In this document: positions 27,521-43,184 of the stretch, in pieces
Layout of the letters: each line of letters begins with the position of its first letter
How positions within the stretch are numbered: position 1 is the stretch's first letter
Assembly: GCA_026874595.1 (NCBI GenBank)
Contig: CM049322.1
Coordinates: forward strand, 52,603,386 to 52,667,385
DNA: 64,000 nucleotides
Source of the DNA: Sipunculus nudus
Lineage: Eukaryota; Annelida; Sipuncula; Golfingiida; Sipunculidae
Direction of reading: 5' to 3'
Notes under the pieces: model-generated
The model's input: the letters and a program-made list of their open reading frames with translations, nothing else
The model's database searches: none
Told to the model about the DNA's origin: nothing
Position numbers and translations under genes: made by a program

Positions 27521-29614
27521 TCATTTGTGATCTATCACCAGGTTTAAGTCTGGCATTATTTCCTGAAGTTTATCTTTGATGACGTCTGCAACGTAGTCAG
27601 GAAGTTTGTTGAAAGACAAGTCTAGACTGGCCAATGTTTTACTTAATCTGATCAAGTTTTCTCTTTGTTCAGTTATCTGTTCTAGTTGTTCGCCCTCTCC
27701 TCTCTCTTTACAGTTACTCCCCAGGTCTACAGTGATTATGGTATCAGGGAGTACGGGGAACAAAGAGAGTATGTCACGTGGTGTCATTCTACAATGTGAC
27801 ATATTCAATATTTGCAAACGAGTAGAGAGTAGCCGTTGACATGCCATGCATTCCAGACCTTCTAGAGAGTTTTTGCTCACATTCAATTTTTGGAGAGAGG
27901 ATGGTAGTCCAGCTATCACCAAAACAATTTCATTCAACGTGACATGGCAATCGGAAATTGTCAGTGATGTGAGCTTTGATTCCGGAAGCCATTCAGATAG
28001 TAGCTTTAAGGGACTGGACTGTCTAAACAACAAAGCTTTCAGTGGGCTAACAGGTTTTTTTGTCAAATGTGTCCCAACGAAAGACATTTCGAGTAAGGTC
28101 TGCGTGTTTGTAAGACCTTTAACAATTGCAAGAACTTCCTCAGTGTCGTGTGAACCAAGGACGGTCAGGTGTTGTAGTGGGAGTTTGGTTAGCACTTTTG
28201 TCATGGTGTCTCCTGCGTAATTTGACATGTCCAGTGCACCAGCGCTGACATGCGATTTCATGAGCTGTAGAAATGTGACCTTTGGAGCGTTTAAATGATG
28301 GAGTATACGCCAATTTTTCTCATCAGGTGACGTCACCCACATCCTCTCAACCTGGCCGCCCCCAAGCATCAAGTATTTAGCGTAGTGAGACGCTGTGTAT
28401 TTGTCGCTGATGTGTAAGACAATCACTTTTGGTAAAGCAAGATTGGCTTCAGGATATTCTGACAGGTATTCCAATTGTAAGTGGGTATTCATATTCCCCA
28501 CTTGGTCTTCGCTCCCTGAAATCAGGGTTTCGATCTGATGCTGTATATCCTCACCACCTAGATCAACGACGAACTTGCGTATCATGGCAGACTCCGTGAA
28601 AGCTCTTGGGGAGCGGCAAAAGCTCATTAAAAGTCGTTTCTGTGTGACTTCATCGGAGTGAACGATAAAGAATGCAGCAAAAAATTCTTGTAGTGTTTTA
28701 TGCGGAAAAAGAACAGTCCGATCGAAATATCTCGTGTCTTCTTTAAGGATTCCTAACTCCCAGGTCTCCTTCCCAATCCTTTCAATGGTGCTGTCATATG
28801 GAAATGATAAATCAACCCTGTTTTGCATCATGGAACTTGTTGCTAAGTCACCGAGTTTCATTAACTTCTCATGGTATCCAGTTATAATTTCAGTGTGACA
28901 CATCTTGTTTTTTCCTCCATTATTTTGATGTCTGTCTAGCAAGTATTTGATATAGTCTTGATAGAAGCCGGTGACAGTATCTGCGAAGGATGGAACGAAG
29001 TGCCACAATGTGGCCATCATGCGCATCGCCAACGGGTTACGACTCAGCGATTCTAGCACATCTGACGCTCTTATCTGTGTCAGTAGTTTGCTTCCTTTAG
29101 TCTCATTTTTTCTGTAAAATTTCTGAACGTACTTTGTAACACCATCTTTGCTGAAGCCAGTCAGAACCAACTCCATGTCAGGTTTTTTGTTAAAACAAAA
29201 AACAGAAGATGATGGGTATCTGGATGTGATGAATAAATTTGTTAAAGGCAGTAATATTCCATGAATCAGATTTGTTATTTCCGTTGACGTATCCATATCA
29301 TATTCGTTTACTCCATCAAATATGAACAATATATTCTTTTGATACTTCTTTATGTAGTCATATAGGGCATCTGCGTATTTCTTTTGTATCTGGTAGGTTT
29401 CCACCATTACATCTATCAGCGTTTGGTTCCGCAAGACCTTCCTCAAGTTTATAGGGAGAACAAACAAAAAGTCGTTAATTGTAAAACTGTTGTGTGCTGG
29501 ATTTTCTGCACTTTCAGGATCAGCTTTAGCCCAGTCAAGACAAATACGTGATGAGAAGGTTGATTTGCCTACCCCTGGCTGTCCTCTTAGGTATATTGTC
29601 CTAGGGTTTTTGGT
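27521..29614 (-). CDS. NACHT-LRR exon of an NLR-type receptor
   Basis: One exon, acceptor ACTTATTTTCAG before 29614, phase 0, 697 codons to TAA at 27521. It begins with TIYLRGQPGVGKSTF, the Walker A loop of a NACHT NTPase (residues 606-614 of the joined model). Walker B is ILFIFDGVNEYD (690-701), and an arginine-bearing sensor follows, LFITSRYP (723-729). Helical and winged-helix-like parts follow, with SRNPLAMRMM. From about residue 1030 the protein becomes leucine-rich with repeats of the form LTSLTISDC, LQKLNVSKNSL, LQILNMSHCRM and LASLDLSFNKL. In the family NACHT drives ATP-dependent oligomerisation and LRRs sense or restrain. No stop or frameshift is present and all nucleotide-binding motifs look intact, so the gene appears functional. 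Confidence 0.93.
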   Translation of the reverse strand, partial: TKNPRTIYLRGQPGVGKSTFSSRICLDWAKADPESAENPAHNSFTINDFLFVLPINLRKVLRNQTLIDVMVETYQIQKKYADALYDYIKKYQKNILFIFDGVNEYDMDTSTEITNLIHGILLPLTNLFITSRYPSSSVFCFNKKPDMELVLTGFSKDGVTKYVQKFYRKNETKGSKLLTQIRASDVLESLSRNPLAMRMMATLWHFVPSFADTVTGFYQDYIKYLLDRHQNNGGKNKMCHTEIITGYHEKLMKLGDLATSSMMQNRVDLSFPYDSTIERIGKETWELGILKEDTRYFDRTVLFPHKTLQEFFAAFFIVHSDEVTQKRLLMSFCRSPRAFTESAMIRKFVVDLGGEDIQHQIETLISGSEDQVGNMNTHLQLEYLSEYPEANLALPKVIVLHISDKYTASHYAKYLMLGGGQVERMWVTSPDEKNWRILHHLNAPKVTFLQLMKSHVSAGALDMSNYAGDTMTKVLTKLPLQHLTVLGSHDTEEVLAIVKGLTNTQTLLEMSFVGTHLTKKPVSPLKALLFRQSSPLKLLSEWLPESKLTSLTISDCHVTLNEIVLVIAGLPSSLQKLNVSKNSLEGLECMACQRLLSTRLQILNMSHCRMTPRDILSLFPVLPDTIITVDLGSNCKERGEGEQLEQITEQRENLIRLSKTLASLDLSFNKLPDYVADVIKDKLQEIMPDLNLVIDHK

Positions 29615-32600
29615 CTGAAAATAAGTGTGCATGTATGGTTCACAGGTGTTTATCAAAATAAAATAAGCTTCGATGAAACTTAACATTAAATTAAAATATC
29701 CAACTTCGTTATTCTCTGTGTGAAGCTCAACGTCAGAAAAAAGAGCTCAACATGTGTGGAGGCCAGTAAAGCATAAAAGAAAGGGGGCACTCGTAGAAGC
29801 ATTATTGATTTTTTTTAAATCCAGATTCTTATTCTTTAAGCTAAAATCGGTAACTATGATACCGACAAAATAATGTCCATAGGAATATACCAATGGACCC
29901 TAATTTTGGATGCTGCATTAAAACGTGATGATATTCCTTATAGTTTTGGATATATAGCAATAAAGAATATGTTAGTGTTTCATGTCAAACGCCCCCTGGT
30001 GACCATTTAAACAATCGTTTTGAAATATTGTAGTACTACATCAAATGTATCAGTTTCAAAACCTATAAATTTCGACCTGCACAGATCATTTAAGTGAAAT
30101 CTCGCATATTCTCATTTGTGGTGAAAAGAAACCACGGAATGAGAATAAATGAGCTACTGTTTATGTGGCTACGGTCATTGTTCTCTTTTTGAAACCTTGA
30201 TCCTCGATCAATTTTACCCCCCCCCCCCAAAAAAAAGGGTCCGAGAACTTATACATATAATATATATACATATATATATATATATATATATATATATATA
30301 TATATATATATACTGACCGACGTATTTGCCGAAATCTTTGATTCCGTTAAGTAATGACCTCAAACAAGGTAATATTTTTCTAATAAGGGTGTCATACAGT
30401 ATGCTTTTAGTATCCCTAACACCATGTCACTGAGGGAAATGCCTGCATGAACTTGGATCATATGTATGGTCACTTCTAATCCCCAAACCGGTTTTCTGAT
30501 TAATCACATATGATAAACGCTGACTGGCATGGGGAAGTCAGAGTCAAGGGGCTCCCGTGCAAAAATCCCTGCTCAAGTTGGAACCTCCTGATGGCTACTT
30601 GAGGGGATGATGCACTGAGATTAAACAACAACACATTGTCAATGACCAGGCCGTTATAAAAAAACCATATAGTCAGTAGTAATTGTAAATATGAACTGTC
30701 ATAGATTCCTAGCATAAACAAAGTTTCTTTTGTATCACTTTGGTACGTTTTAATTTCAATCCCTTTCATACTGCTGAAACAAAAATTCAGCACTGGCAAT
30801 GTGGATTGAAGAGTTATTAAGTAAAAGCGTTAAGGATCAAATAACAATATTTGAAAGCATTTTTACACGGGTTATAAATGATAGGCAAATGTCTGATCCG
30901 ATAGAATTACTTTGGAGTTTTTGAAACGTTGTCAGAAGTAAACAAACCACCCCCTGATCTTATCTATTGTATCGATTTCGAAAAAAATATAACATGAGTA
31001 AAGCACACTGACTACCACTTTCAAAATATGTAAGGTATAATGCACCCTATTCGACATACCTTTCCAAAAATCTCTTTGAAGATTTTTGCATAGTTTGACA
31101 ACAGTTGTACTTCATTTTCCCCTTTCTTGTGTTTGATTATGATAAGTTCAACAAACAGATCCTCCCCACAGACTTCATTATGCTCATCTGTTTGATTCCA
31201 CAGTTTCATTTGGTTACACTGACGGGAAATAGTTTCAGCCATAAGGCGCTTGAGACCAATTAAAGGTACATGTGGATGGATTTCAACAGTTCTTTTAAAT
31301 GTGAGCCAAACGTCCAAAGGTGTCGTTTTTAAGTGGTTAAGCACGGCCCTCACTATGTGTTGATTTGTTGCACACGTTTTCTACAAATACGCAATATCAG
31401 ATACTTTGAACAAGAAAGGTTAAACCAGGAAAATCAACAAAAGGCTGTATTAAAAAGAATATGGACGTATCGGATATGGAAGCAAAGAAGAACTTACTTT
31501 CCAAAAAAAAAAGAAAGAGTACTTTTACTCAAATCTAAACAGTAAAGACTATGATGGGATATTTTAATTTTGAGCGAACAATATCTTTCAGCTCAGTCTT
31601 GAGAAATTGCCCGTCTGGAAGCCAAGTCAATGCAATACCTGAATCAATGCACAATTCTCGTCGGATATAACACCCTCTAGTTTTAACTCTTCCATAGTTT
31701 CTGGGTTGAACAAATCTAAATTCTTCATCAGAAAATCCTCGTTATCGCCAATTATCTGACTGTGATGTATGTCGGCAATACTTCCAGAAACCTGGGAATA
31801 AAACAAATAGATAAAACAAATAGTTTGTCATGCAAGCCATGTACCCGATGAAATGACGTCAATTTAAAAAAGTGGTTATATGTAAAATATGTATAACTTG
31901 CAATGAGAGCCAAATTCATGCAACATCACTGTCGATTGACCTGTTTAAGCGTGGATGACTAGAACAAAAATTTCAAATATATATCTGACGGAAGATTGGT
32001 GTTAATCATTGAACGAAAAACTGCTCATGCAAACCTAACCAACATCTGAGATGAAAAAGAAAGGGCGGTACTGTTATGGTATTCAGTAAATGAAACAGTA
32101 CTAAAAACGTTACCATGCGTGAATTTAAATCTGAGAAATTGTGAAAAAGGAAAAATGGAATCATTTTAATACTAAAGTTACCACTTAGTTTTATGTATTT
32201 TGGTTAGTTTAGCAAGAACAGGATCATGTTTTGAAAGCTTTTATTTTATATAAATGAATCCAGGATTTCTTGTGATAATGTCAGCGGTTGCAAAGCATAA
32301 CTTCATTAAAGCTTGTACTTTCGCCGATATATTCCGATAATATGGGCTAGAGATTTGTGTGCCTGGAATATTTTTATGACTAGTTTTTCAAAGTTATCAT
32401 TAAAATGAGAGAGTTTCATGAAGATCTGATGATTTGTTGATGGGTCCCATGTACTGTATATTCGCACCATTCGCAATATTTTACATTCTGCCAAAAGCTG
32501 AATAAATTATACCGTTTTGTTATTATTTGCCGGATATTCAAAAACATTAAACACAGGACTGATTATCAACGCTAAACTCTAACTAATAGGTCAAACGCTT

Positions 32601-43166: not shown

Positions 43167-43184
43167 GTTTACCTGATCATGGAT
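43106..43184 (-). CDS. Signal peptide exon of the lectin receptor
   Basis: Acceptor TATATCTTGTAG before 43184; ATG at 43166; donor CAAG/GTGGGT at 43106, leaving phase 1. It encodes MAIHRLSFSLALWTLTVIVQ: a short positive start then a hydrophobic core, a good secretory signal. A short upstream ATG (ATGATCAGGTAA, 43179-43168) ends just before the start codon and may damp translation. The acceptor implies an untranslated exon further upstream; the best candidate is at about 48958-49010. Confidence 0.72.

Follow-up and report, generated by a model that had tools for sequence, protein, structure and literature searches.

Lectin-like domains, a membrane helix and a NACHT module predicted on one chain in Sipunculus nudus

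Introduction

NLRs (NOD-like receptors) are usually taken as cytosolic sensors and surface lectins as needing separate adaptors. A locus of Sipunculus nudus raises the question of whether one protein could combine lectin-like recognition at the surface with an NLR switch. It lies on the minus strand of a 64,000-nt stretch (the window, meaning here this whole stretch) of contig C17 in the 1.43-Gb assembly, and it shows exons for a signal peptide, two C-type lectin-like domains (CTLDs), a transmembrane (TM) helix, CARD modules, a NACHT domain and leucine-rich repeats (LRRs). Judged from the gene model, the most likely product of the window gene is a receptor at the cell surface that couples lectin-like domains via one helix to an intracellular immune-sensor switch. 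The gene would probably belong to a class of surface NLRs, dozens of genes or more, in which variable lectin-like ectodomains, one TM and NACHT share one chain and the cytosolic segments (none, or CARDs) are interchangeable, having been swapped by shuffling of exons at introns of matching phase; within this class it would be a member that gained direct CARD output.

Results

The genome searches scored the best candidates alone, namely 98 of 417 for NACHT, 116 of 731 for the window ectodomain query, 148 of 203 for the CARD query and 150 of 2756 for Lectin_C, so that all family sizes given below are lower bounds. The NACHT search listed 99 matches, of which 55, the window's own included, lie on C17, the smallest among the contigs of known size; between 7.7 and 8.1 Mb it carries six same-strand NACHT matches about 66-83 kb apart, in the manner of a tandem array. 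With the window ectodomain as query, 116 other CTLD matches were listed and grouped into 82 clusters.

The co-location of both modules was counted after exclusion of the window's own NACHT match and its five CTLD matches. Within 6 kb, a same-strand NACHT was found downstream in 12 of the 82 CTLD clusters and the three other arrangements were never observed. Within 10 kb, the CTLD stood 5' of a same-strand NACHT in 17/82 clusters (one case for the other three arrangements together), and within 20 kb the count was 21 versus 3. For the 67 clusters on contigs of known size, 17 associations were observed; random placement gave a mean of 0.21 (maximum 3) and local shifts of the same clusters a mean of 0.28 (maximum 5). 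Other Lectin_C matches served as control: none of the 93 tested, and then none of 57 dispersed copies, had a listed NACHT within 20 kb in any arrangement (1 of 151 was unlisted). The CTLD-NACHT association is specific to the CTLD type of the window, to strand and to order.

The structure of nine such loci was then compared with that of the window gene. Eight of them (L048-L055) had been picked for the closeness of CTLD and NACHT, the TM and linker lying outside the selection criteria, and the ninth (L073) as a NACHT without listed CTLD. In all nine, a CTLD exon, a TM segment, a pre-NACHT linker and a NACHT exon were found in this order on one strand. The linker gave a BLAST match in six loci (L049, L051, L052, L054, L055 and L073) and was recognized by eye in L048, L050 and L053, and two CTLDs were clear in L048 and L049, the other loci covering shorter stretches.

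Splice sites were scored with self-made consensus tables; an ad hoc gene finder, which missed exons plain from similarity, was left unused for conclusions. The best TM donor had out phase 0 in the window and in 8/8 paralogs scored. The TM acceptor in phase 1 was the best one in 6/9 cases (window included) and the second-best in L050 and L051; no acceptor was found for the L049 TM segment, which would therefore fall outside the definition of in 1 and out 0, and the L073 TM exon was searched for in these phases only. A TM exon with the same phases was found in none of 74 random 1.7-kb stretches. The best NACHT acceptor was in phase 0 at 10/10 loci, L005 included, and the best linker acceptor was in phase 1 at 8/9 non-window loci, the exception being L050. 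One would therefore expect a small cytosolic exon (in 0, out 1) to lie between TM and linker, and candidates were detected in four of the six loci tried (L048, L051, L054 and L055; not L052 and L053). In the window gene, this position is occupied by exons 8 and 9 (in 0 ... out 1).

Because the same order recurs at nine loci and the co-location lies far above chance, the proposal of a preliminary description of this locus, that a lectin-like ectodomain, one TM and NACHT share one chain, is supported for these modules; its two CARDs per protein are not, owing to a phase conflict described below. The CTLD-TM-linker-NACHT loci likely form a multigene family in this genome. Six further NACHT matches without listed CTLD or CARD were inspected: one had a CTLD (L073), two looked CARD-like by eye (L074 and L078) and the other three had neither CTLD nor CARD within about 5 kb. 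At the L078 NACHT locus (4634-5056), the CARD-like exon is followed by a hydrophobic stretch in the linker open reading frame (ORF), possibly another membrane-linked NLR layout.

As shown in Table 1, the exons of the window gene are all present on the minus strand between 43166 and 27521, from the signal peptide through the NACHT-LRR exon. Over 3.3 kb of sequence preceding exon 2, exon 1 was the sole signal-peptide-like ATG exon with an out-phase-1 donor; the corresponding scans upstream of L048 (1.0 kb) and L049 (1.6 kb) found none. The exon 2 acceptor at 42551 has its homolog at the CTLD1 exon of L048 and most likely marks the start of exon 2, so that the mature chain would begin near TEKNDLEPQC; an earlier start at about 42686 was replaced on the ground of this homology. 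The NACHT exon most likely starts at 29614, only a few residues ahead of Walker A, and enters in phase 0 like its counterparts at nine other loci compared. A start at 29725 was phase-legal and was rejected because 29614 has the better acceptor and matches the paralogs. The resulting exon 12 has 697 codons with an intact frame. The linker half of exon 11 matches L013, L049, L051, L052, L054 and L055.

Table 1. Exons of the window gene and features of its introns (positions in the window)
Feature	Position	Strand	Phases	Remarks
Exon 1, signal peptide (MAIHRLSFSLALWTLTVIVQ...)	43106..43166	-	out 1	
Exon 2, CTLD1 first part	42327..42551	-	1-1	Lectin_C; L048 57% identity over 79 aa
Exon 3, CTLD1 second part	41736..41846	-	1-1	Lectin_C; identity L048 72%, L049 56%
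Exon 4, CTLD1-CTLD2 link	41399..41449	-	1-1	identity L048 81%, L049 67%
Exon 5, CTLD2 first part	40789..40983	-	1-1	Lectin_C; 61-67% identity to several loci
Exon 6, CTLD2 second part	40404..40586	-	1-1	identity L048 60%, L049 44%
Exon 7, transmembrane helix	40191..40273	-	in 1, out 0	
Long interspersed element (LINE) in TM-CARD1 intron	35527..39540	+		Exo_endo_phos 4.7e-10, RVT_1 7.1e-10; frame broken into several ORFs
Exon 8, CARD1 first half	33531..33683	-	0-0	no Met; Pfam CARD
Exon 9, CARD1 second half	33010..33151	-	in 0, out 1	no Met; Pfam CARD
Candidate bridging exon	32653..32714	-	in 1, out 0	not above chance
Exon 10, CARD2 first half	31639..31791	-	0-0	matches L016 CARD1a exon, 38%, 4.7e-7
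Exon 11, CARD2 second half fused to pre-NACHT linker	31060..31380	-	0-0	
Exon 12, NACHT, helical/winged-helix region and LRRs	27521..29614	-	in 0	stop 27523-27521

The domains of the model were compared with Pfam. Two stretches of the ectodomain matched Lectin_C (2.4e-19), exons 8 and 9 together matched CARD (CARD1, 2.6e-8) and NACHT was detected above cut-off (PF05729, 5.2e-17). LRR_1 (3e-5) passed its cut-off when the whole protein was scored but not with any one stretch by itself, and the repeats are few. CARD2 (exons 10 and 11) had no Pfam match; its exons match paralog CARD exons, exon 10 that of L016 (4.7e-7) and exon 11 that of L024 (1.2e-8). By eye, the Walker motifs GQPGVGKST and ILFIFDG are intact in the model. 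Residues 5-366 of the NACHT-LRR exon match the chains 5irl/5irm (1.1e-7), which we take to be rabbit NOD2.

By sequence, the model shows the attributes of an NLR (NACHT with Walker motifs, C-terminal LRRs, and CARD1 as N-terminal death-fold domain); it also carries Lectin_C and a predicted TM, as a C-type lectin receptor at the surface would. The exon 7 helix is the sole hydropathy peak of at least 1.6 in the joined model, and the predicted signal peptide and single TM are at odds with the cytosolic location of NLRs. Of the modules given in the preliminary description, signal peptide, two CTLDs, TM, CARD, NACHT and LRR are borne out; two CARDs in one protein are unproven.

The join between the TM exon and CARD1 was then considered. 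That 43166-27521 is a single gene in which the TM exon is spliced to the CARD is likely. The exon 7 donor (score 5.8) exceeds that of every ATG-exon candidate in the TM-CARD1 intron (best 5.0). Exons 8 and 9 contain no Met at all, so that CARD1 depends on a preceding coding exon that ends in a phase-0 donor, such as exon 7 supplies. In the CARD-NACHT loci L005/L071, L016 and L024, the CARD1 exon has an ATG at the CARD, and L072 has one farther 5' in the frame of the CARD. The same exons could belong to two neighbouring genes, a membrane lectin ending after the TM exon and a cytosolic CARD-NACHT-LRR gene whose first exon, itself unseen, would lie between 40.19 and 33.68 kb. Reading through the exon 7 donor gives Val-Ser-stop, polyA-like sites follow this exon at 39654, 39605 and 39597, small ATG exons with a phase-0 donor are present in the gap and the window NACHT groups with CARD-NACHT genes. 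Such a pair is nevertheless unlikely, since the same CTLD type sits 5' of NACHT elsewhere far above chance, the best TM donor has out phase 0 here as in the eight paralogs scored, and exons 8 and 9 lack a Met; a separate CARD-NACHT start inside the gap is the less likely option.

Several observations weigh against the single gene. The TM-CARD1 intron measures 6.5 kb and carries a LINE and 12 AATAAA sites, and its short ATG exons with phase-0 donor include 11 candidates scoring above 1, the best being MHSAMVEWQ (donor 5.0). The exon 8 acceptor is modest (score 1.9) and the exon 4 donor weak (score -0.6). The CARD exon of L018 has no ATG before the CARD either, so the window is not alone in lacking this Met. 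A CTLD and a CARD next to the same NACHT were seen at no other locus examined, 10 of the 15 CARD-query loci outside the window being among these, and at none among the matches listed. In the public protein set, no full-length homolog was found; four distant NACHT-type matches were obtained, with 27% identity at best, and the part from ectodomain to CARD1 had no match. Finally, the nearest NACHT relatives of the window gene are CARD-NACHT genes, and no CTLD was found upstream of CARD1 in 8.3 kb at the locus of L005 or in 1.2 kb at that of L013 (L070).

The number of CARDs was analyzed through the exon phases. The preliminary description had joined all exons into one 1292-codon frame without any phase conflict, and this does not hold at the CARD1-CARD2 junction: the exon 9 donor that completes the CARD (GATG/gtggga, score 2.6) leaves in phase 1, exon 10 enters in phase 0, and their direct join, which was rejected, contains 57 internal stops. 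A phase-0 exit from CARD1 needs either an extra exon or the weak donor at 33035 (score -0.5); a similar frame, of 1293 aa, is recovered with this donor, which cuts the CARD short. Three candidate bridging exons were found, none better than chance: an exon as good as the best candidate occurred in 31% of 104 window stretches and one as good as the 62-nt candidate in 42%. With a bridging exon, the joined model has 1277 aa. Because the phase of the exon 9 donor does not fit exon 10, two CARDs in one protein are unproven.

As a refinement within the single-gene explanation, and not an addition to it, each protein could carry a single CARD, made by exon 8 spliced to exon 11 or by exons 10 and 11 (alternative CARDs). 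This is possible, if somewhat doubtful. Splicing exon 8 to exon 11, or exon 7 via exon 10 to exon 11, keeps the frame and gives 1158 aa in either case, unlike the direct join of 9 to 10; exons 8 and 11 together retain a CARD score (9.1e-6), and the bridging exons do no better than chance. On the other hand, exon 9 has an open frame and the best CARD score is reached by the two CARD1 exons in combination (2.6e-8), so that exon 9 is probably used. The phase conflict between exons 9 and 10 would also be compatible with a decaying chimera or pseudogene, and the closest NACHT relative, L013, is itself broken (frame breaks, Walker A lysine lost). Decay of the window gene is however very improbable, as its coding exons are open and its 697-codon NACHT-LRR exon is intact.

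The origin of the two halves of the single gene was approached by comparison with both groups of loci. Among the matches listed, copies at C17:54.6-54.8 Mb and C6:12.18 Mb come closest to the window CTLDs. The window NACHT falls together with those of L013, L005 and the CARD-NACHT locus L058 (support 100/98), apart from the L048/L049 NACHTs. As in the CTLD-TM-linker-NACHT family, the CTLD is followed by a TM exon with in 1 and out 0. The linker is not the separate exon (in 1, out 0) of this family; it is fused to CARD2b in exon 11, with in phase 0, and the NACHT does not group with the family NACHTs. To judge from these comparisons, the window gene is a hybrid, with the ectodomain of the CTLD-TM-NACHT family and the NACHT of the CARD-NACHT group, the CTLD-TM half having presumably been joined to the CARD-NACHT-LRR half at a phase-0 intron. 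On the NACHT tree the CTLD label is scattered and requires 7 changes over the 15 rows. This pattern suggests repeated swapping of modules, the tree labels being assigned by proximity. No ectodomain was found upstream of CARD1 in the CARD-NACHT loci L056 (9.8 kb) and L057 (10.2 kb). At L071 (C14), a long in-frame minisatellite with an open frame of 1527 codons lies upstream of the CARD-NACHT-LRR locus.

Discussion

The window gene would encode a type I membrane receptor with signal peptide, two lectin-like domains, one helix, one or two CARDs, linker, NACHT and LRR. Its CTLDs would bind an external ligand. Sugar-binding C-type lectins have EPN/QPD and WND calcium-site motifs; none of these was seen by eye in the window ectodomain, and the ligand need therefore not be a sugar. 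NLRs act through NACHT oligomerisation and CARD-CARD recruitment. In the window protein, the NACHT ATPase may oligomerise beneath the membrane and the CARDs may seed the recruitment of CARD-bearing effectors there. NOD1/NOD2-type NLRs have the same order of CARD, NACHT and LRR, and the match to 5irl/5irm extends over NACHT and the helical domains; unlike the window model, they are cytosolic and have no signal peptide, CTLDs or TM.

Membrane NLRs have been described in other animals. AjNLRC4 of Apostichopus japonicus is a membrane NLR with extracellular Ig and intracellular NACHT, which is found at the membrane and binds bacteria (PMC8699970). It resembles the window protein, here a gene model, in having a recognition ectodomain, a membrane helix and an intracellular NACHT on one chain; it differs by its Ig and two TM helices and, in the sections available of that paper, by the absence of CARD and LRR, where the window gene has CTLD, one TM, CARD and LRR. 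The same sections describe two sea cucumber proteins with the Ig-TM-NACHT make-up and not a large family (PMC8699970). Paralogs of the window gene without visible CARD must signal otherwise, perhaps via actin like AjNLRC4 (PMC8699970). AjNLR-new is also a NACHT protein in the membrane, of opposite topology to the window model, with NACHT outside and Ig inside (PMC13133943, available part). In the sponges Dysidea avara and Amphimedon, putative membrane-bound NLRs with TM domains in NLR architectures were reported; the available text names no CTLD ectodomain for them and counts Lectin_C in only 3 D. avara sequences (PMC12909245).

Other systems share part of the design. The amphioxus TNFR-caspase 'shortcut' receptor, for which the available part of the report gives cDNA support, has an extracellular receptor and an intracellular death-pathway module on one chain (PMC2575513); these are other modules than those of the window gene, without NACHT. 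Pinctada fucata has more than 200 NACHT genes, and no word beginning with lectin occurs in the main text as available (PMC9646362). Four NACHT proteins are given for Aplysia in the accessible part of PMC9334734, and for the ctenophore Mnemiopsis the accessible part of PMC11797021 handles CTLD and NACHT genes as separate groups.

A CTLD-TM-NACHT receptor was named in no title or abstract opening found, which is weak evidence of absence since the literature search ran without supplements and most subscription journals. The view that no receptor with such an order had been described stands to that extent; its novelty is reduced by the membrane NLRs already described (AjNLRC4, PMC8699970) or suggested in sponges (PMC12909245). 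Because AjNLRC4 is already described, the window gene is a new variation on membrane NLRs and not a new principle.

If the proposed class exists, its multigene family would be a one-step route from surface to NACHT, part of the NLR repertoire would stand at the plasma membrane, and NACHT oligomerisation driven from outside the cell would find there a natural test. NLR surveys made exon by exon can miss ectodomains several kb upstream.

Other elements of the window and genome

Each of the contigs C1-C17 carries ORFs without introns, about 330-440 aa long, whose CTLDs score similarly (57 dispersed Lectin_C matches listed); some of these ORFs are tandem copies with a spacing of about 1.42 kb. At L079 (C7:29983500-29991500), three such intronless CTLD ORFs adjoin another ORF without introns, of 239 aa, in which Pfam finds two CARD stretches (1.9e-9). 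The CTLD pair of intronless ORFs aligned weakly with the window ectodomain, at 22-24% in a panel of 8. These intronless CTLD/CARD ORFs may represent a multicopy mobile or viral element carrying both modules, perhaps as decoys.

In the window itself, there is a DUF4371 piece below cut-off at 22493-22915, of the kind found in hAT-type transposon remnants. A LicD-family ORF (1e-17) lies on the minus strand at 4624-5649, and at 59832-60845 a YqaJ-like exonuclease domain is in one frame with a reverse-transcriptase stretch.

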